From Serratia sp. DD3 (GTDB lineage: Bacteria; Pseudomonadota; Gammaproteobacteria; Enterobacterales; Enterobacteriaceae), in NCBI RefSeq assembly GCF_000496755.2, contig NZ_AYKS02000033.1:1-64000 (forward strand): a stretch of 64,000 nucleotides of DNA, given 5' to 3'. Below, piece by piece: positions 48,254 to 58,034 of this stretch. The stretch's first letter is position 1. Each line of letters opens with the position of its first letter. The notes beneath the pieces were generated by a model. It was not told where the DNA came from and ran no database searches. It was given only the letters and a program-made list of their open reading frames with translations. A program made the position numbers and the translations under genes.

Positions 48254-48664
48254 TTAGCGGTGATATTCGCCCGCTGCTTCCGGTTGATACAGCAGCTCCA
48301 ACACCTCAATCTGCGCTTCCTCGCCGTTTGGCAATGTCCAACTGATCTGTTTGCCAACATGCATGCCTAACAGCGCCGCGCCCAACGGGGCCATTACCGA
48401 CAGTTGTTGGTTGCTGTCTTTGAGGGAAGCCGGATAGACCAGCGTGCGCACATGTTCCTCCGAGGTATGTAAATCCCGAAAACGCACACAACTGTTCATG
48501 GTGACGACATAGGGCGGAATTTGCGATGGCGGCACAATATCAGCACGATCCAGTTCAGCATTCAGTGCAACTGCAACATCAGTGTTAGCAAAAGCTGGCT
48601 GTGCCAGCAGTGTATCCAGACGTTCCGCATCCAGCTCATTAATGGTAATGGTTGGTTTGCTCAT
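48254..48664 (-). CDS. rnk: Regulator of nucleoside diphosphate kinase, Rnk
   Basis: ATG 48664 gives 136 residues, the same as E. coli Rnk; the frame opens seven codons earlier. The N-terminal coiled-coil ([20 protein letters not shown]) and the GreA-like C-terminal domain ([37 protein letters not shown]) match. Rnk binds RNA polymerase in competition with GreA/B and influences Ndk levels. Confidence 0.96.
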
Positions 48665-48730
48665 TCCACTCTCCAGTCCAATCAAAAGGCGCCCTTCTCG
48701 CGCTCATAAATTCGGAAAAACAACACAAAG

Positions 48731-48764
48731 CAACACCCCCGCACTTTTAGGCACGGGGGTGTTG
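48731..48764. terminator. Perfect 11-bp stem upstream of rnk
   Basis: CAACACCCCCG (48731-48741) and CGGGGGTGTTG (48754-48764). On the minus strand it is followed by CTTTGTGTTGTTTTT. It lies in the rnk leader and may attenuate or end transcription entering from upstream. Confidence 0.5.
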
Positions 48765-48943: not shown

Positions 48944-48963
48944 TTTCCAGTTCGAACTGGAAA
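48944..48963. promoter_or_regulatory. Perfect 20-bp palindrome before the dga-like operon
   Basis: TTTCCAGTTCGAACTGGAAA, 91 bp upstream of the first gene. It is a good candidate operator for the PRD-type activator encoded at 54740. No other regulatory match was seen. No clear sigma-54 promoter is present nearby. Confidence 0.6.
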
Positions 48964-49054: not shown

Positions 49055-49402
49055 GTGAATGAAGGGATAGCTTCGGCAAATAAAATAGCACAGGTTGATA
49101 TTAGTAAGGCCTCAGCAATAACCACGCAGGTACTGGCTGATATCAGCACCATGCTGAGTGCAAATAATATTTACACCAATGCGGTACAACAGCAAATGCT
49201 GGAGTCGCATATCCGCGCGATGGTATTGCGCTCAATAACCGGTGAACCATTACCTGAAGTTGATAAATCACTGTTTGATGAAATATCTGCCGAATCAATG
49301 CAACTAGCAGAACAGGTGGTGGACAAATTCCCCACCTTACCGATAGAGGAAGCGTATCTACTTTCTGTCCATTTTGAAGTAGCTAAAGATAATAACCAAT
49401 AA
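49055..49402 (+). CDS. Small PRD-domain protein of the DUF4310-4312 cluster
   Basis: A 115-residue protein that is essentially one PTS-regulation domain: an N-terminal stretch (ISKASAITTQVLADISTMLS) and the characteristic SHIRAMVLRSITGEPLPE with its His, then LPIEEAYLLSVHFEVAK containing a second. PRDs are normally phosphorylated on histidine by HPr or EIIB and attached to regulators; a free-standing PRD of this size is unusual. I recall such a protein at the head of this conserved cluster in Enterococcus and Aeromonas, function unknown. Starts at GTG 49055. The proposed role, a phosphorylation-sensing regulator or a phosphorelay partner, is inference. Confidence 0.75.
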   Translation: MNEGIASANKIAQVDISKASAITTQVLADISTMLSANNIYTNAVQQQMLESHIRAMVLRSITGEPLPEVDKSLFDEISAESMQLAEQVVDKFPTLPIEEAYLLSVHFEVAKDNNQ

Positions 49403-49428
49403 ATATCGTTTAATCAGGAGAATACACC

Positions 49429-49794
49429 ATGACACAAATCACAGTAGTTATCGGCGACCGTCTGGGTAAAGGGCAAAAAGTAGGCCTGGGCATCGAAAAT
49501 GCGGGGGCCAAAGCCATCGTAATCCCTGGTATGGCGGCAGATATGAAACTGGGTGATGTGATGAAAGCAGAAAACGCCCAATTGGGTATTTCCTTCTGTG
49601 GTAGTGGCGGAGCCGGAGCCATTACTGCCCAGAATAAATATGGCTATAAAGCGAAATATGGCATGCGCTCTGTTGAAGAAGGCGTCACGGCAATTAATGA
49701 GGGCTATAACGTATTAGGCTTTGGCTTTATGGATAAAGAGGAGTTAGGCCAGCGCTTGGTAGAAGCCTACATCAAAAAATATGGCAATGCATGA
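49429..49794 (+). CDS. Glycine-rich SFCGS-family protein
   Basis: The 121-residue cytosolic-looking protein has a phosphopeptide-like alpha/beta pattern: ITVVIGDRLGKGQKVGLGIE at the start and a SFCGSGGAGAITAQNKYGY turn with Cys57. The name SFCGS glycine-rich family comes from this motif. The cysteine at the head of a glycine-rich turn recalls the phosphocysteine loops of PTS EIIB proteins (such as CGTG/CAAG). That resemblance is by eye. It is the second gene of the cluster, 26 bp after the PRD gene, and overlaps the next gene by ATGA. Function unknown. Confidence 0.8.
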   Translation: MTQITVVIGDRLGKGQKVGLGIENAGAKAIVIPGMAADMKLGDVMKAENAQLGISFCGSGGAGAITAQNKYGYKAKYGMRSVEEGVTAINEGYNVLGFGFMDKEELGQRLVEAYIKKYGNA

Positions 49795-50090
49795 TGAAAG
49801 AGCTCTACACAACGTCAGTCAAGGTGGAGGGAAAAGGCGATACTAAAGCAAAAGCCTTTGCCTCTGCATTAGCGAATGTGCAGGGTGCGATTTTAAAATC
49901 CACCAATAATATTCTGCTGCGCATTGAGCCGCAGGACGTCAGCATATTAAAAGCGGAAGAAAAAACAACCAGAGAAAAATTTCTTTTCTTCTTTCTACCG
50001 CGTGAAAGGAAAAGCTATAGCGTTTCTTTGGAAATAACCGTGACTGTCACCATCATCAATACGGAACAGGTGGTCTTTGTCACAAAATAA
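49791..50090 (+). CDS. DUF4312-like small protein
   Basis: A 99-residue protein starting at the ATG that overlaps the previous stop. It has an N-terminal TTSVKVEGKGDTKAKAFASA, a central basic/aromatic REKFLFFFLPRERKSYS and a C-terminal beta-rich VSLEITVTVTIINTEQVVFV. No membrane helix of full length. I recognise it only as the conserved third small protein of this cluster. The tight overlap argues for a stoichiometric complex with the SFCGS protein. Function unknown. Confidence 0.75.
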   Translation: MMKELYTTSVKVEGKGDTKAKAFASALANVQGAILKSTNNILLRIEPQDVSILKAEEKTTREKFLFFFLPRERKSYSVSLEITVTVTIINTEQVVFVTK

Positions 50091-50173
50091 AAACGTTATT
50101 CCCCTAATCACTTAAGTTATGAACCATTGACACCACTTATAAGTTCCAGGGGATATAACATAAAAAGGGTATT

Positions 50174-50953
50174 ATGATGTTTCTAATCATCTTATTTAAG
50201 TCGATTATTATCGGCGGGCTGGTAGGTGTCGGCGTAGGAGCCGGTGCCGCACGTATGTTCCATGCCCCGACGACACAGGGTATGGGTGCTTTCCGCACCT
50301 TGGGTGAGCTGAACTCCTGCGAAGGAGACCCTGCATCTCACTTCTCTTTTGGTCTTGGTTTCTTCTTCAACGCCTGGGCATCGTCTGTGGCGGCGGGTGC
50401 CTTCACGCAGGATGTTGACCACCGCATTATTCCCAACTGGGGTGCCGCGGCCTTGATGATCAAGAACCGTAATGTGGCAGAAACACTGCACGACCCGAAA
50501 AAAATGGCCATTGCCTGCGGCATTATTGGCATTTTGGTGGTGGCGTTCCTCAACACCACGGCTTCAGCAGTCCCTGCCGCTTTGCAGGTCACCGCAATCA
50601 AAGTTTTGGTACCTGCGGCTAACCTGCTGGTCAATACCGTAATGCCGGTGATCTTCTGGCTGGCGGCCATCGAAGCCGGTAAACGCTCGGGTTTCTGGGG
50701 CACTATTTTCGGTGGTTTGGCACAGTTAATCATGGGTAACGCGGTTCCCGGCCTGGTGTTAGGGATCCTGATCGGTAAAGGTGTGGAAGAAAGCGGCTGG
50801 AATAAAGTGACCAAAATCATGATGGCGGTGATTGTCCTGCTGTTCGTGCTGAGCGGTTTCTTCCGTGGCTTTGATATCAAACTGCTGCAATCCTTCAGTC
50901 TGGGCATCCCTGGCTGGCTGGACGCCATTCACAATACCCTGAGCGGTAAATAA
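50174..50953 (+). CDS. DUF4311-like integral membrane protein
   Basis: The 259-residue protein has about six to seven membrane helices: the first at residues 4-24 (rich in Gly), a middle set including IACGIIGILVVAFLNTTASA, and two near the C-terminus. A soluble loop with EGDPASHFSFGLGFFFNAWA follows the first helix. It belongs to the uncharacterised DUF4311 group. Small conserved polar residues in the helices fit a transporter subunit. It lies 83 bp after the DUF4312 gene, with a possible hairpin (CCCCT/AGGGG) in the gap, and 11 bp before DUF4310. Confidence 0.8.
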   Translation: MMFLIILFKSIIIGGLVGVGVGAGAARMFHAPTTQGMGAFRTLGELNSCEGDPASHFSFGLGFFFNAWASSVAAGAFTQDVDHRIIPNWGAAALMIKNRNVAETLHDPKKMAIACGIIGILVVAFLNTTASAVPAALQVTAIKVLVPAANLLVNTVMPVIFWLAAIEAGKRSGFWGTIFGGLAQLIMGNAVPGLVLGILIGKGVEESGWNKVTKIMMAVIVLLFVLSGFFRGFDIKLLQSFSLGIPGWLDAIHNTLSGK

Positions 50954-50964
50954 GGAGCTAACTC

Positions 50965-51615
50965 ATGGAAGCACAGACTCAAAAAGGCTTCTGGTATGCC
51001 GACTGGTCATTTCCGATTTTTGTTGGCCTACTCTCATCTGGCGTGTTCGCCGGTACACATATGTATTACCTGTACGGTATTGGCGCGTTTAACGAAGTGG
51101 CTTTTGTTTCCATGCTGCGCGCTGGGATGGATACCGGGGTTTACGGTGCAGTGGCGGCGTTCGGTGCCAGCTTCCTGTTTGCCCGCATCATCGAAGGTTC
51201 ACTGGTGGGTATTCTGGATATCGGTGGTGCGATCCAGACCGGGGTGGGGCTTGGTGTCCCCGCACTGTTATTAGGTGCAGGCATTGTTTTTCCCGTTGCC
51301 AACTTTGCTGCATCGCTGGTAACGGGCTTAGTGATTGGCCTGGCGATCGGTTATCTGATTATTCTCGCCCGTAAGTTCACCATCAACCAGAGTAACTCAA
51401 CCTACGGCGCCGACGTGATGATGGGTGCGGGTAACTCCTCCGGGCGTTTCCTTGGGCCGTTGATCATCTTGTCTGCCATGGCCGCGTCAATTCCCATTGG
51501 TGTCGGTTCTTTGCTCGGCGCACTGCTGTTTTACATCTGGGGTAAACCTATCACCGGTGGAGCCATCTTGGGTGCCATGATATTAGGGGCGATTTTCCCG
51601 GTAGCTATTTCTTAA
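50965..51615 (+). CDS. DUF4310-like integral membrane protein
   Basis: The 216-residue protein has about six helices with glycine-rich packing, including GVYGAVAAFGASFLFARIIE and GGAIQTGVGLGVPALLLGAG, and a small cytosolic loop NQSNSTYGADVMMGAGNSSG. AAGGAG precedes the ATG. It is the partner of the DUF4311 protein; both together could form one transport channel. No known transporter family matches by eye. Confidence 0.8.
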   Translation: MEAQTQKGFWYADWSFPIFVGLLSSGVFAGTHMYYLYGIGAFNEVAFVSMLRAGMDTGVYGAVAAFGASFLFARIIEGSLVGILDIGGAIQTGVGLGVPALLLGAGIVFPVANFAASLVTGLVIGLAIGYLIILARKFTINQSNSTYGADVMMGAGNSSGRFLGPLIILSAMAASIPIGVGSLLGALLFYIWGKPITGGAILGAMILGAIFPVAIS

Positions 51616-51663
51616 TCTTAATTTCCCCCTGGCTCACCGCCCAGGGGGAAAGGAGTACCTCGT

Positions 51664-52803
51664 ATGTATGACCTCATCATTCGGCGCGCCAGACTGGTGG
51701 ATGACACCTTGGCCGATGTAGCTATTGTGGGGGGTAAAATCGCCACTATAGGGCAACTGCCTGAAGACGCTCACGCTCACAAGTTACTGGATCTGGCGGG
51801 CATTTATCGCCTGAGCGCTGGCTGGATCGATAGCCACGTACACTGTTATCCCTCCTCACCGATTTATCATGATGAGCCGGATCGCGTTGGCGTGGCAGCC
51901 GGTGTCACTTCGGTAGTCGATGCCGGTAGTACAGGAACTGATGACATTGATGAGTTTTATGCCCTGACACGCAGTGCTAAAACCAACGTTTTTGCCTTCC
52001 TCAATATCTCCCGTATCGGCCTGTTAAGACAAAATGAACTGGCCGATATAACGGATATCAATAAGGAACAGGTCAACAAGGCCATCAATGACAAGAGCGG
52101 TTTCGTTATTGGCATCAAAGCGCGCATGAGTAACAGCGTCGTGGGTCAGAACGGTATCAAACCGCTGGTGATGGCAAAAGAGATCCAGCAGGAGAATCAC
52201 TCATTGCCACTGATGGTGCATATTGGCAACAATCCGCCCGATCTGGATGAAATTGCCGATTTGCTGACCCAAGGTGACATCATTACTCACTGCTACAACG
52301 GCAAACCAAACCGTATTCTGACTCCCGCAGGCAAGTTACGCGCCTCCATCGAGCGTGCATTAAAACGTGGCGTCTTGCTGGATGTAGGTCACGGTAGCGC
52401 CAGTTTCAGTTTTGAGGTTGCCCGGCAGGCCATCGCACTGGGGATCCTTCCGCACACTATCAGTTCCGATATTTACTGCCGTAACCGCATGGCTGGCCCA
52501 GTGCATAGCCTGGCAACCGTGATGTCAAAATTCTTTACCATCGGGCTTTCTCTGCAACAGGTGATTCGCTGCGTGACAGAAAATGCCGCCGCAGCACTAC
52601 AGTTGACGAGCAAAGGGCAACTGCACCCGGGTTTTGATGCCGACCTGACCATTTTTGACATCCACACAGCACCACAGGTGTTCGCTGACTCTGAAGGGGA
52701 GTCAGTCCATGGTGAACAACTGTTGGTACCACTGGCCGCCATTGTGGCTGGTGAAGTCCTATTAACCGATGAAGGAAAAGCGGCTCATGTCTTCAATCTA
52801 TAA
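51664..52803 (+). CDS. Metal-dependent amidohydrolase/deacetylase of the cluster
   Basis: The 379-residue protein is an amidohydrolase-superfamily enzyme. Metal ligands are H58 and H60 in DSHVHCY, K152 in GIKARMS (probably carboxylated), H186 in MVHIGN, H209 in ITHCYNG, and D269 in ISSDIYC. It resembles dihydroorotase-like deacetylases. In this pathway it most plausibly removes an acyl group from an amino sugar acid or opens a lactam before the ammonia-lyase step; the substrate is inferred. It overlaps the next gene by 17 bases, so tight co-expression is clear. Confidence 0.88.
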   Translation: MYDLIIRRARLVDDTLADVAIVGGKIATIGQLPEDAHAHKLLDLAGIYRLSAGWIDSHVHCYPSSPIYHDEPDRVGVAAGVTSVVDAGSTGTDDIDEFYALTRSAKTNVFAFLNISRIGLLRQNELADITDINKEQVNKAINDKSGFVIGIKARMSNSVVGQNGIKPLVMAKEIQQENHSLPLMVHIGNNPPDLDEIADLLTQGDIITHCYNGKPNRILTPAGKLRASIERALKRGVLLDVGHGSASFSFEVARQAIALGILPHTISSDIYCRNRMAGPVHSLATVMSKFFTIGLSLQQVIRCVTENAAAALQLTSKGQLHPGFDADLTIFDIHTAPQVFADSEGESVHGEQLLVPLAAIVAGEVLLTDEGKAAHVFNL

Positions 52804-53905
52804 AAAATATAATTTAAAGCAGGTGATCAATACTTCGGGTCGTATGACCATTCTCGGTGTTTCTACACCACGCCAGGAGGTGATTGACGCCGTAAACTAC
52901 GGCCTGAATCATTACTTTGAAATCAAAGATCTGGTCAATAAGACTGGGGCCTATATTGCCAACCTGCTGAATGTGGAAGATGCGGTGATTGTTTCTTGTG
53001 CGTCTGCGGGTATCGCCCAATCGGTAGCGGCAGTGATCGTCAAAAATAACGCCAATCTGTTAGTCAATCTGCATTCGGCACCGGTCAATGAGCCGCGCGA
53101 GATCGTGTTGCCACGGGGTCATAATGTCAACTTCGGCGCCCCGGTAGATACCATGGTGGCACTCGGTGGTGGCAAAGTGGTGGAAGCGGGCTATGCCAAC
53201 GAATGTTCCCCAGAGCAGCTAGAAGCCTGCATCACCGCGCAAACCGCCGCCATTTTGTATGTGAAGTCCCATCACTGCGTGCAAAAAAGTATTCTCTCCG
53301 TTGAGCAGGCCGCCGTGGTAGCACGAAACCATAATCTACCGCTGATCGTCGATGCTGCTGCAGAAGAAGATCTGATGTGTTACTACCAGATGGGCGCAGA
53401 CCTGGTGATTTACAGTGGTGCCAAAGCTATCGAAGGCCCCACCAGCGGTCTGGTGATCGGCAAGAAGCAATATGTGGAATGGGTGAAACAGCAGTCCAAC
53501 GGTATTGGTCGTGCCATGAAGGTAGGCAAAGAGGGCATTATTGGCCTGACACAAGCGATTGAAAGCTATCTGACGCTTGAACAAACCACTGGCGCGCAAA
53601 TGGTTGAGTTGATGACACCGTTTATTACCCAGTTGAATACCCTGAATGGCATTAGTGCCAAAACTGTCTGGGACAGTGCCGGGCGCGATATCGCCCGAGT
53701 TGAAATTACCTTTGATGAAGCGGTACTGGGGATGTCCACCGTGGATATCGTCCAGGCATTGAAAACCGGCGATATTGCTATCTATTTCCGTGGCTACAAG
53801 GCCAACGAAGGCAAAATTGAAGTGGATGTCCGCAGCGTTAACCAACAGCAATTGATGACCATTTTTACCTGCATTAAAAATCTGTTTACGGAGCAATCAG
53901 CATGA
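52787..53905 (+). CDS. dgaE: DgaE-family pyridoxal-phosphate ammonia-lyase
   Basis: ATG 52787 (with GAAGGA upstream) gives 372 residues. It is a SelA-like PLP enzyme: SCASAGIAQSVAAVIV, then Asp in LPLIVDAAAEED and the Schiff-base lysine K213 in IYSGAKAIEGPTSG. DgaE of Salmonella converts D-glucosaminate-6-phosphate to 2-keto-3-deoxygluconate-6-phosphate and ammonia. Similarity is to that family; a related phosphorylated amino acid sugar is possible. Its stop overlaps the dgaF start by four bases. Confidence 0.88.
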   Translation: MSSIYKKYNLKQVINTSGRMTILGVSTPRQEVIDAVNYGLNHYFEIKDLVNKTGAYIANLLNVEDAVIVSCASAGIAQSVAAVIVKNNANLLVNLHSAPVNEPREIVLPRGHNVNFGAPVDTMVALGGGKVVEAGYANECSPEQLEACITAQTAAILYVKSHHCVQKSILSVEQAAVVARNHNLPLIVDAAAEEDLMCYYQMGADLVIYSGAKAIEGPTSGLVIGKKQYVEWVKQQSNGIGRAMKVGKEGIIGLTQAIESYLTLEQTTGAQMVELMTPFITQLNTLNGISAKTVWDSAGRDIARVEITFDEAVLGMSTVDIVQALKTGDIAIYFRGYKANEGKIEVDVRSVNQQQLMTIFTCIKNLFTEQSA

Positions 53906-54642
53906 AACTGAAACCGAATTATTATAAAGATCGTGTTTGTCTTAACGTGTTAGCAGGGTCAAAAGATAATGCGCAGGAAATCTATGACGCCGCGCAAGGG
54001 CATGTGCTGGTGGGCGTACTTTCCAAAAACTATCCGGATGTGGACAGCGCCGTGGCGGATATGAGCCGTTATGCCCGCCTGATTGACAATGCGCTCTCTA
54101 TCGGATTGGGTGCTGGTGACCCGAAACAGTCAGCGATGGTCAGCCTGATCGCTCAACAGGTTCAACCACAGCATGTCAACCAGGTGTTTACCGGTGTGGG
54201 TACCAGCCGCGCTCTGCTTGGGCAAAGTGACACGGTGGTTAACGGCCTGGTTTCACCCACTGGTCGCGTGGGTTGGGTCAAGATTTCAACCGGGCCATTA
54301 AGTGCACTGTCGGCGGATGGCATCGTACCCGTGGAAACTGCCATTGCGTTACTGAAAGATATGGGAGGCAGTTCGATTAAATATTTCCCTATGGGCGGTT
54401 TGAAACACCAGGACGAATACCAGTACGTGGCAAAAGCTTGTGCCGAACATGACTTTATGCTGGAACCTACTGGTGGTATTGACCTGGAAAACTTTGAGCC
54501 CATCCTTGAGATTGCGCTGCAAGCGGGTGTCAAGCAGGTGATCCCGCACATCTACAGTTCAATCATTGATTCCACCACTGGCAATACCCGCCCTCAGGAT
54601 GTTAAAACTTTGTTGGAAATCAGCAAAAAACTGCTAGGGTAA
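53902..54642 (+). CDS. dgaF: DgaF-family 2-keto-3-deoxy-6-phosphogluconate aldolase
   Basis: The 246-residue protein starts at ATGA, overlapping dgaE. It has family segments VCLNVLAGSKDNAQEIYDAA, GLVSPTGRVGWVKISTGPLS and IKYFPMGGLKHQDEY, and FMLEPTGGIDLENFEPIL. DgaF splits KDGP into pyruvate and glyceraldehyde-3-phosphate. This fixes the predicted end of the pathway: central metabolism. It ends the operon; a hairpin follows at 54695-54719. Confidence 0.88.
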   Translation: MKLKPNYYKDRVCLNVLAGSKDNAQEIYDAAQGHVLVGVLSKNYPDVDSAVADMSRYARLIDNALSIGLGAGDPKQSAMVSLIAQQVQPQHVNQVFTGVGTSRALLGQSDTVVNGLVSPTGRVGWVKISTGPLSALSADGIVPVETAIALLKDMGGSSIKYFPMGGLKHQDEYQYVAKACAEHDFMLEPTGGIDLENFEPILEIALQAGVKQVIPHIYSSIIDSTTGNTRPQDVKTLLEISKKLLG

Positions 54643-54739: not shown

Positions 54740-56656
54740 ATGGTAAGGTTCCCCTATCCACGCCTGGCGTACCTGTTTGATGCCTTGCAGTCCGAGGTGT
54801 TACCTCAGGAAGAGTTGGCAAAGCGTTTTGCCGTCTCTACCCGCACAGTACGCACGGATATCACGGCGCTAAACGAGATACTGAAAAACTACGGCGCACA
54901 CTTTGTGCATAGCCGTGGCGCTGGCTATCGTCTACAGGTAGACGATGAAACCCTGTTTAGTGCCTTGCAACAGAAAAAGCACAAAAAGCAGGCCACTCCG
55001 CGCAGCGCACAAGAGCGAGTAAATTATCTGTTGATCCGTTTTCTGACCTCAGCTTTCTCGATGAAGCTGGAGGATCTGGCCGATGAATGGTTTGTTAGCC
55101 GCGGTACGCTGCAAAACGATATGGCTGAGGTGAGAGAACGGCTGGCACATTACCAATTAACCATTGAGACCAAACCACGCTATGGCATGAAGTTGTTTGG
55201 TTCAGAAATGGCGATCCGTGCCTGCCTGACCAACCTGCTGTTTCAGTTGCATCTGACCGATGCGGAAAGCCCCTTGCTGAACAATAACATCCTTCACCAA
55301 CCGCAAGTCGCTACCTTTGCCAGCTCACTACATCCCTTGCTGTCCCAATACGCTATCCGCCTGACAGATGAAGGCGAACAATACCTGATTTTCTATTGTG
55401 CCGTTGCGCTACGGCGCATCATCGATGGCTATCCACTCCAAGAATTTGAGGTGGAAGACGGCGACGAAGCGGTACGTAAAGCATCAACCTGGCTGGCTGG
55501 TGAACTGCGCAACGCCGCGGGCAAGGCGATCTCCTCAGCGGAAGAAGCCTATTTGCGCGTCAATATTGCCGCCAGGCAGGTACAAAATGTACAACCCAGC
55601 AAAATCAATGCGGATGATGAAGAGGCGTTGGGAGATTACATTCTCTCCTATATCAACTCGCACTATAACTACAACCTACAAGGCGATAAGCAATTACGGG
55701 CAGACCTGCTCACCCATATCAAAACCATGATCACCCGGGTGAAATACCAGATCAACATCCCCAATCCGCTGTTGGCAAATATTAAGCAGCATTATCCCAT
55801 GGCCTATGATGTGACACTGGCGGCCATCTCCAGTTGGGGTAAACACACGCCTTATACCTTGAGCGAAAACGAAATCGGCTATCTGGTGCTGCATATCGGT
55901 GTCGGTCTTGAGCGGCACTACAACATTGGTTACGAACGCCATCCACAAGTGATGTTGGTATGCGATACCGGTAACTCGACGATACGGATGATCCAGGCTC
56001 AAATCGCACGCAAATATCCGCAACTGGTGATCACACGCACCATTTCACTGCGCGATTATGAGATTCTCAACCATATTGAAGAGGATTTTATTATTTCCAA
56101 TGCCCGTATCAATGAAAAGAACAAACCGATTGTCGTGATGTCGCCATTCCCTACAGAATATCAGTTAGAACAGCTAGGTAAGCTGGTCCTGGTGGATCGT
56201 ACCAGACCCTATATGCTGGAAAAGTTCTTCGATGCCGACCATTTCATGGTTATTGATGAACCGCTTTCTCAACAACAGTTGTTTACCAAGGTTTGTTCTC
56301 AGTTAGAGCAAGAAGGCTATGTTGGCAGTGATTTTTACCCTTCGGTAGTCGAACGAGAAGCCATCGTTTCTACTCTGTTAGGGGAAGGGATTGCCTTACC
56401 ACACTCTCTGGGGCTACTGGCAAAAAAAACCGTGGTGGTCACCTTGCTGGCCCCTCAAGGGATCTCTTGGGGGGAAGGAGAAGTGGCTCATGTCATTTTC
56501 CTGCTGGCGATCAGCAAAGATGATTATGAAGAAGCCATGGCAATCTATGATTTGTTTGTCACCTTTGTGCGTGAACGTTCGATGACCCGCTTGTTGGGCA
56601 GCGATAATTTCGAATGTTTTAAAGCCGTTGCCCTAGACTGCCTGAGCCGAATTTAA
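54740..56656 (+). CDS. PRD-containing transcriptional activator with EIIA domain (MtlR/LicR-like)
   Basis: The 638-residue protein has two N-terminal helix-turn-helix domains (residues ~8-70, EELAKRFAVSTRTVRTDITA, and ~95-160, LADEWFVSRGTLQNDMAEVR). PRD1 is at about 190-290 and PRD2 about 295-400, with histidines in NSHYNYN and VLHIGVGLERHYN. A GatB-like EIIB module follows near 410-490 with CDTGNSTIRMIQAQ, and a C-terminal mannitol/fructose-type EIIA domain near 500-638 with GIALPHS. Such regulators are phosphorylated by HPr and EIIB to match transcription to substrate. It should activate the upstream operon, possibly at the palindrome at 48944. It is the only PTS-type component in the cluster. 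Confidence 0.9.
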   Translation: MVRFPYPRLAYLFDALQSEVLPQEELAKRFAVSTRTVRTDITALNEILKNYGAHFVHSRGAGYRLQVDDETLFSALQQKKHKKQATPRSAQERVNYLLIRFLTSAFSMKLEDLADEWFVSRGTLQNDMAEVRERLAHYQLTIETKPRYGMKLFGSEMAIRACLTNLLFQLHLTDAESPLLNNNILHQPQVATFASSLHPLLSQYAIRLTDEGEQYLIFYCAVALRRIIDGYPLQEFEVEDGDEAVRKASTWLAGELRNAAGKAISSAEEAYLRVNIAARQVQNVQPSKINADDEEALGDYILSYINSHYNYNLQGDKQLRADLLTHIKTMITRVKYQINIPNPLLANIKQHYPMAYDVTLAAISSWGKHTPYTLSENEIGYLVLHIGVGLERHYNIGYERHPQVMLVCDTGNSTIRMIQAQIARKYPQLVITRTISLRDYEILNHIEEDFIISNARINEKNKPIVVMSPFPTEYQLEQLGKLVLVDRTRPYMLEKFFDADHFMVIDEPLSQQQLFTKVCSQLEQEGYVGSDFYPSVVEREAIVSTLLGEGIALPHSLGLLAKKTVVVTLLAPQGISWGEGEVAHVIFLLAISKDDYEEAMAIYDLFVTFVRERSMTRLLGSDNFECFKAVALDCLSRI

Positions 56657-56820: not shown

Positions 56821-57948
56821 TCATTCAACCAGAAACGCCCGTTCAATCATCAGCGCTCTTTGTTCTGTGGAATAAGTCACCCAGGAATTTTTACTGTTGG
56901 ATCTCTCCAATACCGTGGCAAACGCCTGTTGGCTGAGAGGAAGGGCCTGCTGCCAGAAAGGAGCAATGGCATGGCGGGTGATAAAGTCACTCAGGTAACG
57001 TTCTGGAGCACCCTGCTGTTGTGGAAACAATCGCAAGGCCAGCTCCGCCATTAACAGGCGCTGTTGCGGGTGTGCACTTTCAGCCAGCAGTTCAAGAAAA
57101 GGTAGCAGTAAACGCCCACACACCTGCCCATGGTGATAATCTCGCAGGGCGCCGATCTCGCCAGCAATACCATGGATCACCCCCAACCCTGCCATGCTCA
57201 GCGTCAAACCACCAAGATAGGAAGCCTGCATCATCGCCTCTCGGGCTTTATCACTCCGATTCAGATCAGGCCAGGCCGACAGAAAGTGACGCATACCCAC
57301 CAGCGACATCTCTCGAGACCAGTTACTGGCCTTGTCAGAGAGATAAGACTCCAACAGATGCGTGAAAGCATCAATGCCACAACAGGCCAATAGGTTATCT
57401 GGTGTCCCTGTTAACAGTTCGGGGTCAAGGATCGCCACTTGGGGGACAAAATTGGCGTGCCGCAAAGAGGCTTTCACTTTGCTGATCTCGGTATCGGTAA
57501 TCACCGCATTTTGCGTGACCTCACTCCCGGTACCGGCGGTGGTAGGAACGGCGATTAATGGCAATGTGGCACCACTGATTTGGCTATCCCCGACCTTCTC
57601 CATATAACGTAGGGTCGGTAAAGGATGTTCGATCAGCGCAGAGAACGCCTTGGCAGCATCAAGCACGCTCCCGCCACCAATGGCCACCACGCGCTGCACT
57701 TTTCCACGCCAGCGCGTAACCCATTGGTCGATCTCCTGGGGTGAGGCTTCATGAGCGACAATCTCACTACCGACTAAGCATGGTGCCAGTGTATCCGCCA
57801 ATGAGCCATAAATAGGCCCATTAAGAAATGAACGGCAGGTGAAAAGTAATGTTGGCTGCGGCTCACTGCGCAGCAACGGAATCAAACGCTGGATAGTGCC
57901 ATGACCAAACCAGGTTTGCCGGTTGGTAATCATCAGGCTTGAAGCCAT
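56821..57948 (-). CDS. Iron-containing alcohol dehydrogenase
   Basis: ATG 57948, after AAGGTGACG, gives 375 residues; a start ten codons upstream is less supported. The group III Fe-ADH motifs are present: AIGGGSVLDAAKAF, VPTTAGTGSEVT, and the metal histidines in FTHLLES, GVIHGIAGEIG and RDYHHGQ. It should oxidise or reduce an alcohol/aldehyde with NAD(P). It converges on the dga-like regulator, and could use a product of the cluster, but it may be unrelated. Confidence 0.9.
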   Translation of the reverse strand: MASSLMITNRQTWFGHGTIQRLIPLLRSEPQPTLLFTCRSFLNGPIYGSLADTLAPCLVGSEIVAHEASPQEIDQWVTRWRGKVQRVVAIGGGSVLDAAKAFSALIEHPLPTLRYMEKVGDSQISGATLPLIAVPTTAGTGSEVTQNAVITDTEISKVKASLRHANFVPQVAILDPELLTGTPDNLLACCGIDAFTHLLESYLSDKASNWSREMSLVGMRHFLSAWPDLNRSDKAREAMMQASYLGGLTLSMAGLGVIHGIAGEIGALRDYHHGQVCGRLLLPFLELLAESAHPQQRLLMAELALRLFPQQQGAPERYLSDFITRHAIAPFWQQALPLSQQAFATVLERSNSKNSWVTYSTEQRALMIERAFLVE

Positions 57949-58034
57949 GTTCGTCACCTTATACCTGTCATACCTCAAGCTCTAGAAGTCAATATCAGAG
58001 ATAAACAACAAAGAGCAAACATTGATAACGGAGG

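Follow-up and report, generated by a model that had tools for sequence, protein, structure and literature searches.

How can a bacterium take up and phosphorylate an amino-sugar acid when the operon that appears to degrade it encodes no known transporter and no match to the kinases of related pathways? The question is raised by Serratia sp. DD3, in which a 64,000-nucleotide stretch (positions 1 to 64,000 of contig NZ_AYKS02000033.1, hereafter the window) carries genes for an amidohydrolase, a DgaE-type ammonia-lyase and the aldolase DgaF behind five genes coding for a small PRD protein and the SFCGS, DUF4312, DUF4311 and DUF4310 proteins, together termed the head. A reading of the sequence alone (the sequence-only reading) had named the head as the best candidate importer. 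This proposal is strengthened indirectly, by the co-occurrence of head and enzymes across genomes and by transporter and kinase queries that were nearly all negative, while a probable tie to the phosphotransferase system (PTS) and the possible phosphorylation of the substrate had been missed. The interpretation favoured here, tentatively and with somewhat less than even confidence, is that the nine genes constitute a self-contained operon under PTS control, with an N-acetylated 2-amino-2-deoxy aldonic acid (most likely N-acetyl-D-glucosaminate) as its substrate, and that the head is an unconventional phosphorylating permease of the PTS type.

Linkage of the head to the catabolic enzymes

Genome loci were taken as the best 80 of 501 DUF4311 relatives from the contig scan, all from Enterobacterales judging by their titles, and three plasmid records were added to give 83 loci, with Bacillota represented only by plasmid records and protein lists. 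All nine genes are present in 80/83 loci, the other three (L008, L056 and L062) being cut by contig ends, and the gene order of the window is kept in 79 of the 80 complete loci, Enterococcus faecalis placing the regulator gene first. A homologue of the regulator occurs in 81/83 loci (the remaining two are cut loci), and the SFCGS gene sits between the PRD and DUF4312 genes in every complete locus. Among 398 Pseudomonadota genomes, DUF4311 exceeds its cut-off in twelve, and DgaE exceeds its family cut-off in the identical twelve, two of which (G169 and G373) hold a second DgaE inside a mannose-PTS dga operon. Widespread occurrence of DUF4310 and DUF4311 without DgaE and DgaF, which the sequence-only reading had named as grounds for refuting its proposal, was not seen in the loci and genomes examined, save for one deleted copy in Aeromonas caviae (L108), where tblastn finds SFCGS, DUF4311 and then, about 0.1 kb on, only the end of DgaF, with no amidohydrolase or DgaE.

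Several observations concern individual records. The Serratia rubidaea NCTC12971 locus (L005) was counted as complete, though several of its cluster genes match in at least two pieces, as if the frames were broken or the sequence contained errors. DgaF of E. faecalis likewise matches in two pieces (L081:18579-19312), with no gene listed there, and the A. caviae record, of 4.94 Mb, is labelled a plasmid yet is chromosome-sized. A DUF4311-DUF4310 fusion (P0093) is listed under the fungus Astraeus odoratus and probably represents bacterial contamination with a merged gene model. A weak DUF4311 match in two genomes (L099 and L100) was rejected, the open frame concerned being assigned by eye to a DjlA-like J-domain protein. 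No blastn match to the DUF4311 gene was found in the Escherichia coli genomes, and a 16S probe for an alphaproteobacterial genome gave no match in 20 genomes.

The window was scanned with Pfam and NCBIfam profiles, with curated cut-offs used for family calls (Table 1). All eight open reading frames proposed at 49055-54642 were confirmed on the forward strand, and the family name given to each was upheld by a score above the curated NCBIfam cut-off; the ninth gene and the upstream palindrome had been missed. The gaps between the eight genes are 26, -4, 83, 11, 48, -35 and -4 bp, and several starts are preceded by a Shine-Dalgarno-like sequence (by eye). Against the Pfam PRD model alone the first gene scores 16.4, under the cut-off of 23. 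The DUF4311 protein shares 98 % identity with its counterpart in Serratia sp. Ag1. In the regulator, an ALPHS motif in the EIIA domain and an EIIB-like VCDTG motif with Cys408 were recognised by eye. Convergent to the regulator gene lies an iron-containing alcohol dehydrogenase gene (56821-57978, reverse strand), of which a relative is also found near the cluster in L002 and L004.

Table 1. Genes and candidate operator of the Serratia sp. DD3 operon (positions in the window; scores in bits)
Feature	Position	Strand	Description
Candidate operator	48944..48963	.	Perfect 20-bp palindrome TTTCCAGTTCGAACTGGAAA; TTTCC-N10-GGAAA upstream of the PRD gene
Stand-alone PRD protein	49055..49402	+	115 amino acids; TIGR03582 132.6, cut-off 69.35; proposed His phosphoryl carrier or sensor
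SFCGS protein	49429..49794	+	121 amino acids; TIGR03577 222, cut-off 141; PF14272; proposed EIIB-like phosphocysteine carrier
DUF4312 protein	49791..50090	+	99 amino acids; TIGR03578 129, cut-off 90; without hydrophobic segment
DUF4311 membrane protein	50174..50953	+	259 amino acids; TIGR03580 502, cut-off 301; hydrophobic segments; proposed permease subunit
DUF4310 membrane protein	50965..51615	+	216 amino acids; TIGR03579 394, cut-off 215; hydrophobic segments; proposed permease subunit
Amidohydrolase/deacetylase	51664..52803	+	TIGR03583 539, cut-off 432; proposed N-deacetylase of amino-sugar acid 6-phosphate
DgaE-family pyridoxal phosphate (PLP) ammonia-lyase	52769..53905	+	TIGR01437 591.5, cut-off 385.3
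DgaF, 2-keto-3-deoxy-6-phosphogluconate (KDPG) aldolase	53902..54642	+	TIGR03581 401, cut-off 222; NF047796 393, cut-off 300; PF07071 359, cut-off 26.7
BglG/MtlR-type regulator (ninth gene)	54740..56656	+	638 amino acids; helix-turn-helix, two PRD and EIIA_2; start 97 bp downstream of DgaF

A probable phosphorylated substrate and the possible source of its phosphate

The catabolic half of the operon stands as proposed, with the amidohydrolase, DgaE and DgaF all above their family cut-offs. Among solved structures, the amidohydrolase is related to 8wzy (555 bits), deposited as a dihydroorotase, and to 2ics (344 bits), deposited as an adenine deaminase. The ammonia-lyase belongs to the TIGR01437 family but misses the strict D-glucosaminate-6-phosphate ammonia-lyase equivalog NF047797 (378.7 bits; cut-off 600), so that "DgaE-like" is the right term. 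The available part of the study of D-glucosaminate-6-phosphate ammonia-lyase places the substrate phosphate near Arg301, Arg332 and Arg346 and also names His162/163 (PMC9529869). Alignment maps the three arginines onto R310, R341 and R355 of the window DgaE, the histidines onto H168/H169 and the SGAK lysine onto K219. The three phosphate arginines are kept in 11/11 DgaF-linked DgaE proteins (the window, L081-L083, L101-L105, L139 and L140), while in 9/9 DgaE relatives without a nearby DgaF match (L141-L149) a cysteine replaces the third. Conservation is imperfect, with alanine at the first of the paired histidines in two Bartonella DgaE proteins, and Arg226, near the carboxylate in the D-glucosaminate-6-phosphate enzyme, corresponding to Lys232 in the window. 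The kept arginines nevertheless point to a phosphorylated substrate. The DgaE-like proteins of L141-L149 may act on amino acids or amino-sugar acids that are not phosphorylated. In L141, L143 and L148 a distant amidohydrolase relative lies no more than about 6 kb from the DgaF-less gene. Records with a DgaE relative numbered 221, mostly rhizobial and below 40 % among those listed, and some of those above 45 % were inspected.

A phosphorylated substrate requires a phosphate donor, and in six other DgaE/DgaF clusters recognisable transporters occupy the place of the head. Three of these, from Lacticaseibacillus (L103), G169 (L140) and G373 (L139), encode a mannose PTS EIIABCD and show no kinase match. 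A Clostridioides difficile plasmid (L102) combines lactose-type EIIA, EIIB and EIIC with MupG and a kinase, Niallia (L105) has EIIC, MupG and a kinase (unannotated, read by tblastn), and Priestia (L104) has a gluconate symporter and a kinase. No SFCGS was found by tblastn in any of the six. Plasmid records with a DgaF relative numbered 14, and ten regions plus L105 were inspected, second records of Klebsiella, L. paracasei and Listeria being left out. Two loci fell outside the six: those of Listeria (L106) and Alicyclobacillus (L107) have only a distant DgaF (31-32 %) and no DgaE match, beside an ascorbate-type PTS in the former and an ABC transporter in the latter. The clusters with EIIC, MupG, amidohydrolase, DgaE, DgaF and kinase (L081:13626-20341, L102:1330-9738 and L105) may represent a route for a disaccharide with an amino-sugar acid at one end, such as chitobionic acid, in which the PTS would phosphorylate one half, MupG would split the product and the kinase would activate the acid half.

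Two kinases, the gluconate symporter, MupG and mannose and lactose enzymes II were used as tblastn queries against 85 head-bearing sequences (the window, L001-L083 and L101). Relatives of the query kinases were absent from 84/85 of these sequences, with kinase, EIIC and MupG matched in E. faecalis L081 alone. The earlier statement that no known transporter is encoded therefore does not hold universally, E. faecalis having PTS EIIC, MupG and a kinase beside the head. Since the other DgaE/DgaF clusters have a visible source of phosphate and all but one of the head-bearing sequences lack a kinase match, the head stands where a phosphorylating transporter would be expected.

A tie to the PTS is suggested by two Bartonella plasmids (HY406 and HY761), in which a PEP-protein phosphotransferase (PEP, phosphoenolpyruvate) gene follows the regulator gene by 64 bp. 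In HY406, the one of the two plasmids that was scanned, the product is an HPr-EI fusion (PTS-HPr and all three PEP-utiliser domains of enzyme I) bearing GLHARPA and GGATSHVAILAR motifs. No enzyme II name appears among the 49 features listed for this plasmid. The simplest explanation for such a private fusion would be that PTS phosphate is required by the operon. Residues that could carry this phosphate are present in the soluble subunits of the head. His52 and His106 of the PRD protein are invariant in 82/82 sequences, where just 13/115 columns are invariant overall, and Cys57 of SFCGS is invariant in 83/83 sequences and in 50/50 SFCGS proteins of another comparison. At the level of residues, the head thus appears to possess the phosphorylatable His and Cys of a PTS permease. 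Small PRDs are known as regulatory, and a carrier role would be new.

The predicted structure of SFCGS (predicted local distance difference test, pLDDT, 92.4; predicted template modelling score, pTM, 0.87) has the RpiB fold by structure search. The RpiB/LacAB residue set comprises the catalytic Cys and His and the phosphate-binding Arg. SFCGS keeps Cys66 and Asp9 of RpiB, while His10 is replaced by Arg, His99 is variable and Arg133 and Arg137 are lost, and it scores 14.5 bits against the RpiB/LacAB Pfam model, under the cut-off of 24.7 for membership among the isomerases. The SFCGS profile matched no Protein Data Bank sequence up to E 1, and a lactose EIIB chain appears in the structure search only at rank 43 (E 0.016). 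A predicted RpiB fold that keeps the cysteine without the isomerase set suggests a His-to-Cys relay. Together with the Bartonella HPr-EI fusion, the invariant PRD histidines, the DgaE arginines and the near-complete absence of kinase matches, this makes a link between the head and the PTS probable and phosphorylation by the head possible.

The membrane proteins are likewise strongly conserved, with 120/259 columns invariant in DUF4311 (84 sequences) and 115/216 in DUF4310 (82 sequences). Homology between the two was considered and rejected, as MAFFT stacks a GAF...FGxxFxF motif but hhalign gives a probability of 1 % and the block-shuffle test fails (34/120 shuffles score at least as high as observed).

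Candidate operator and substrate

A match to the pattern TTTCC-N10-GGAAA is found no more than 330 bp ahead of the PRD gene in 82/83 sequences (the window and 82 loci, with L056 omitted as no PRD gene is in view), although most loci are related and these occurrences are not independent; shuffled versions of these regions give an expectation of 0.02. The sole exception is E. faecalis L081. At least three of the five inner positions also pair in 59/83 sequences. Intact arms occur at this one site only in the 64-kb window, and the 83 loci (1.68 Mb) contain the pattern 82 times, once away from the upstream site of the operon (L037). The A. caviae locus and the other Bartonella plasmid carry it as well, and the greatest weight falls on the Bartonella copies, since Bartonella belongs to a different class. 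When 14 whole genomes were searched, a stricter pattern occurred at the cluster in 14/14 and read on both strands in 13, while elsewhere it gave eight one-strand matches in seven genomes, which is no excess over a control pattern (eight in six genomes). The palindrome is thus a candidate operator of the linked PRD/EIIA regulator. CRP-like sites in the window are fewer than chance, and a sigma-70 promoter scan remained at chance level. A terminator-like hairpin of 14 pairs (48731-48764, reverse strand) lies between the operon and a reverse-strand gene at 48254-48685.

The presence of an amidohydrolase ahead of DgaE points to an N-acetylated amino-sugar acid. N-acetylglucosaminate is the leading candidate, with manno-configured or other isomers possible. 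In 32/83 loci, though not in the window, a lactonase gene (PF10282) separates DgaF from the regulator. The Klebsiella lactonase begins with an apparent signal peptide (by eye), which would agree with periplasmic opening of an aldonolactone. For N-acetylglucosaminate (GlcNAc1A) utilisation in Aeromonas, the available part of one study reports only distant or no OngB/OngC matches and leaves other deacetylases and deaminases open (PMC11653859); the head/DgaE/DgaF cassette is a candidate for this route. An AA10 lytic polysaccharide monooxygenase (LPMO) gene lies about 18 kb (G373:C22:169596) and about 28 kb (G282:C1:4273729) from the head in the only two of the twelve head genomes that have one.

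No functional study of the head was found in the open PMC literature under the DUF names, the E. faecalis, Salmonella and Aeromonas loci or the yhf genes, subscription papers being outside this scope. The Salmonella numbers STM4446 and STM4441-2 are presumably members of this cassette. They are listed in an array study (available part of PMC11000858), and an ef_0839 or ef_2975 promoter was seen in a urine screen (available part of PMC2912369).

Proposed route, alternative explanations and known systems

In the favoured interpretation, HPr~P would phosphorylate the stand-alone PRD protein at His52 and/or His106, from which the phosphoryl group would move on to SFCGS (at Cys57), a protein of predicted RpiB fold that has lost the isomerase residues. 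SFCGS would then phosphorylate the sugar acid during its passage through DUF4311/DUF4310, with DUF4312 as an accessory. The amidohydrolase would deacetylate the 6-phospho product, DgaE would deaminate the deacetylated 6-phospho acid to KDPG and DgaF would split this into pyruvate and glyceraldehyde-3-phosphate, while the PRD/EIIA regulator would sense the phosphorylation state and act at the palindrome.

A number of observations weigh against this route. No known EIIA, EIIB or EIIC/D family domain was found in the head proteins with Pfam and NCBIfam up to E 1, and the EIIA_2 domain resides in the linked regulator, outside the head genes; judged by known domains, the head falls outside the PTS permease families, though it may work like one of them. 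The Bartonella HPr-EI fusion could serve the regulator alone, and the PLSDB gene list in which no enzyme II is named for HY406 may be incomplete. The kinase screen detects relatives of its two query kinases only, and a kinase may lie elsewhere in the genome. In E. faecalis the kinase, EIIC and MupG genes adjoin the head, and a 30 % match to a mannose-type EIIB (L067:20475-20759) lies 2.9 kb beyond the regulator gene and runs to the end of that stretch. The model of a natural DUF4310/DUF4311 fusion protein (P0090) was too poor (pLDDT 61.7) to bear on an EIIC-like fold, and gave no match at E 0.001 in the structure search. As to the substrate, chitin LPMO genes occur in 2/12 head genomes and 22/386 others (Fisher p 0.16), a difference that is not significant and lends no support to a general LPMO source. 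Furthermore, some Serratia and Klebsiella are reported to carry ong clusters, which serve GlcNAc1A without phosphorylation (available part of PMC9537276), so that the head may serve another acid there.

The missing enzyme II homology would be accommodated if the head imported without phosphorylating, with DUF4311/DUF4310 as an ion-driven permease, PRD and SFCGS as PTS-linked gates or sensors and a kinase elsewhere giving the 6-phosphate. PRDs are usually regulatory. A symporter with a kinase is also the arrangement of related pathways, namely L104 and, as far as the available part of PMC9537276 goes, the marine ong pathway. Such an importer is nonetheless considered unlikely, as the two query kinases match only the one E. 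faecalis sequence among the 85, the palindrome occurs in its two-sided form only at the operon in 14 genomes, leaving no co-regulated kinase apparent, and the invariant cysteine and paired histidines look catalytic.

The RpiB fold could instead mean that SFCGS is a pathway isomerase or epimerase, the head being a mixed assortment (enzyme, regulator, membrane proteins) and not a single permease complex. This is improbable, given that SFCGS does not retain RpiB His10, His99 or the C-terminal arginines, that the known route to KDPG needs no isomerase and SFCGS is missing by tblastn from the six mannose-PTS, lactose-type and GntP clusters, and that the SFCGS gene is held between PRD and DUF4312 in each complete locus. 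Slightly more improbable still is a membrane sensor complex that informs the regulator about the substrate while an unlinked general permease performs uptake. PRD and EIIA domains do dominate the control side, and membrane-tethered control of MtlR-type regulators is known, yet transporters rather than sensors occupy the position of the head in the six alternative clusters, and five sensor genes for one operon would be unusual, with two of them nearly half invariant (82-84 sequences).

If the phosphorylating permease is real, it may belong to a new class of PTS permeases in which a stand-alone PRD protein takes the part of EIIA as histidine carrier, an RpiB-derived protein takes that of EIIB as phosphocysteine donor, and the membrane subunits are unrelated to any known EIIC. 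It would comprise two branches or more, one acting on amino-sugar acids through DUF4311/DUF4310 and one built on YhfT/YhfU/YhfY. This extension is doubtful. The E. coli K-12 yhf operon (L171:4936-12345) encodes the small PRD protein YhfY, the DUF2620 protein YhfU and the 434-amino-acid membrane protein YhfT. YhfY is related to the head PRD by hhalign (E 4.3e-8, probability 95 %), blastp (E 5e-5, against eight Yhf proteins) and NCBIfam (E 1.6e-6, below cut-off). His48 is invariant in 9/9 YhfY, where the second histidine is absent, and Cys52 in 10/10 YhfU; the Cetobacterium order PRD, DUF2620, YhfT resembles PRD, SFCGS, DUF4312, DUF4311, DUF4310. The link between YhfU and SFCGS is weak. DUF2620 is touched by 31/50 SFCGS proteins (best E 3.1e-4), the window SFCGS not among them, and the same scan also touches clearly unrelated families such as Cecropin (16/50, best E 0.002), while hhalign of YhfU and SFCGS is weak (E 0.005, probability 7 %), though it spans most of YhfU and places Cys on Cys. 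The idea that YhfT is a fused DUF4310/DUF4311 was rejected, there being no profile similarity to either.

Were the proposed class to exist, five families without known function would become a transporter and the amino-sugar acid route would be closed, the DUF4311/DUF4310 branch providing a phosphorylated route for N-acetylglucosaminate that includes a candidate for the missing Aeromonas route. PRD domains would gain a phosphoryl-carrier role beyond that of regulatory switches, and the YhfY/YhfU/YhfT link would suggest a function that can be tested for part of the E. coli K-12 yhf operon, which is uncharacterised and for which we know of no substrate. Besides the PRD homology, that operon has in common with the head a membrane protein and a small protein whose invariant Cys lies in a Gly-rich loop; it differs in the lack of detectable similarity between YhfT and DUF4310/4311, the weak YhfU-SFCGS match, the single histidine of YhfY and its other enzymes. 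The RpiB/LacAB sugar-phosphate isomerases have the fold and catalytic cysteine in common with SFCGS, whereas their His10, His99, Arg133 and Arg137 are not kept.

A close likeness is to the EF_0829-EF_0839/AHA_3910-3917 cassette (TIGR03577-TIGR03583), of which the window genes are members, all above cut-off, although its five head models are named merely as hypothetical or PRD-domain proteins. The AHA locus names in the NCBIfam models are those of A. hydrophila, we presume, and a DUF4311 of this species is present in the protein listing. The head order is the same in E. faecalis, but the window lacks EIIC, MupG and kinase and has its regulator downstream, where that of E. faecalis is upstream. 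The Salmonella regulator DgaR is a sigma54 activator, whereas that of the window is of the BglG/MtlR type. The Pseudoalteromonas ong pathway, in the available part of PMC9537276, likewise proceeds from GlcNAc1A by deacetylation, PLP-dependent deamination and KDPG formation, but employs the SSS symporter OngIT and the late kinase KdgK on unphosphorylated intermediates. The Salmonella dga system (DgaABCD PTS, DgaE and DgaF; available part of PMC9529869) shares DgaE, DgaF and a phosphorylated amino-sugar acid, with uptake by a PTS; in the window the five-gene head takes the place of these PTS genes (of the mannose family by the cited title), an amidohydrolase is added and DgaE lies under the strict equivalog cut-off.

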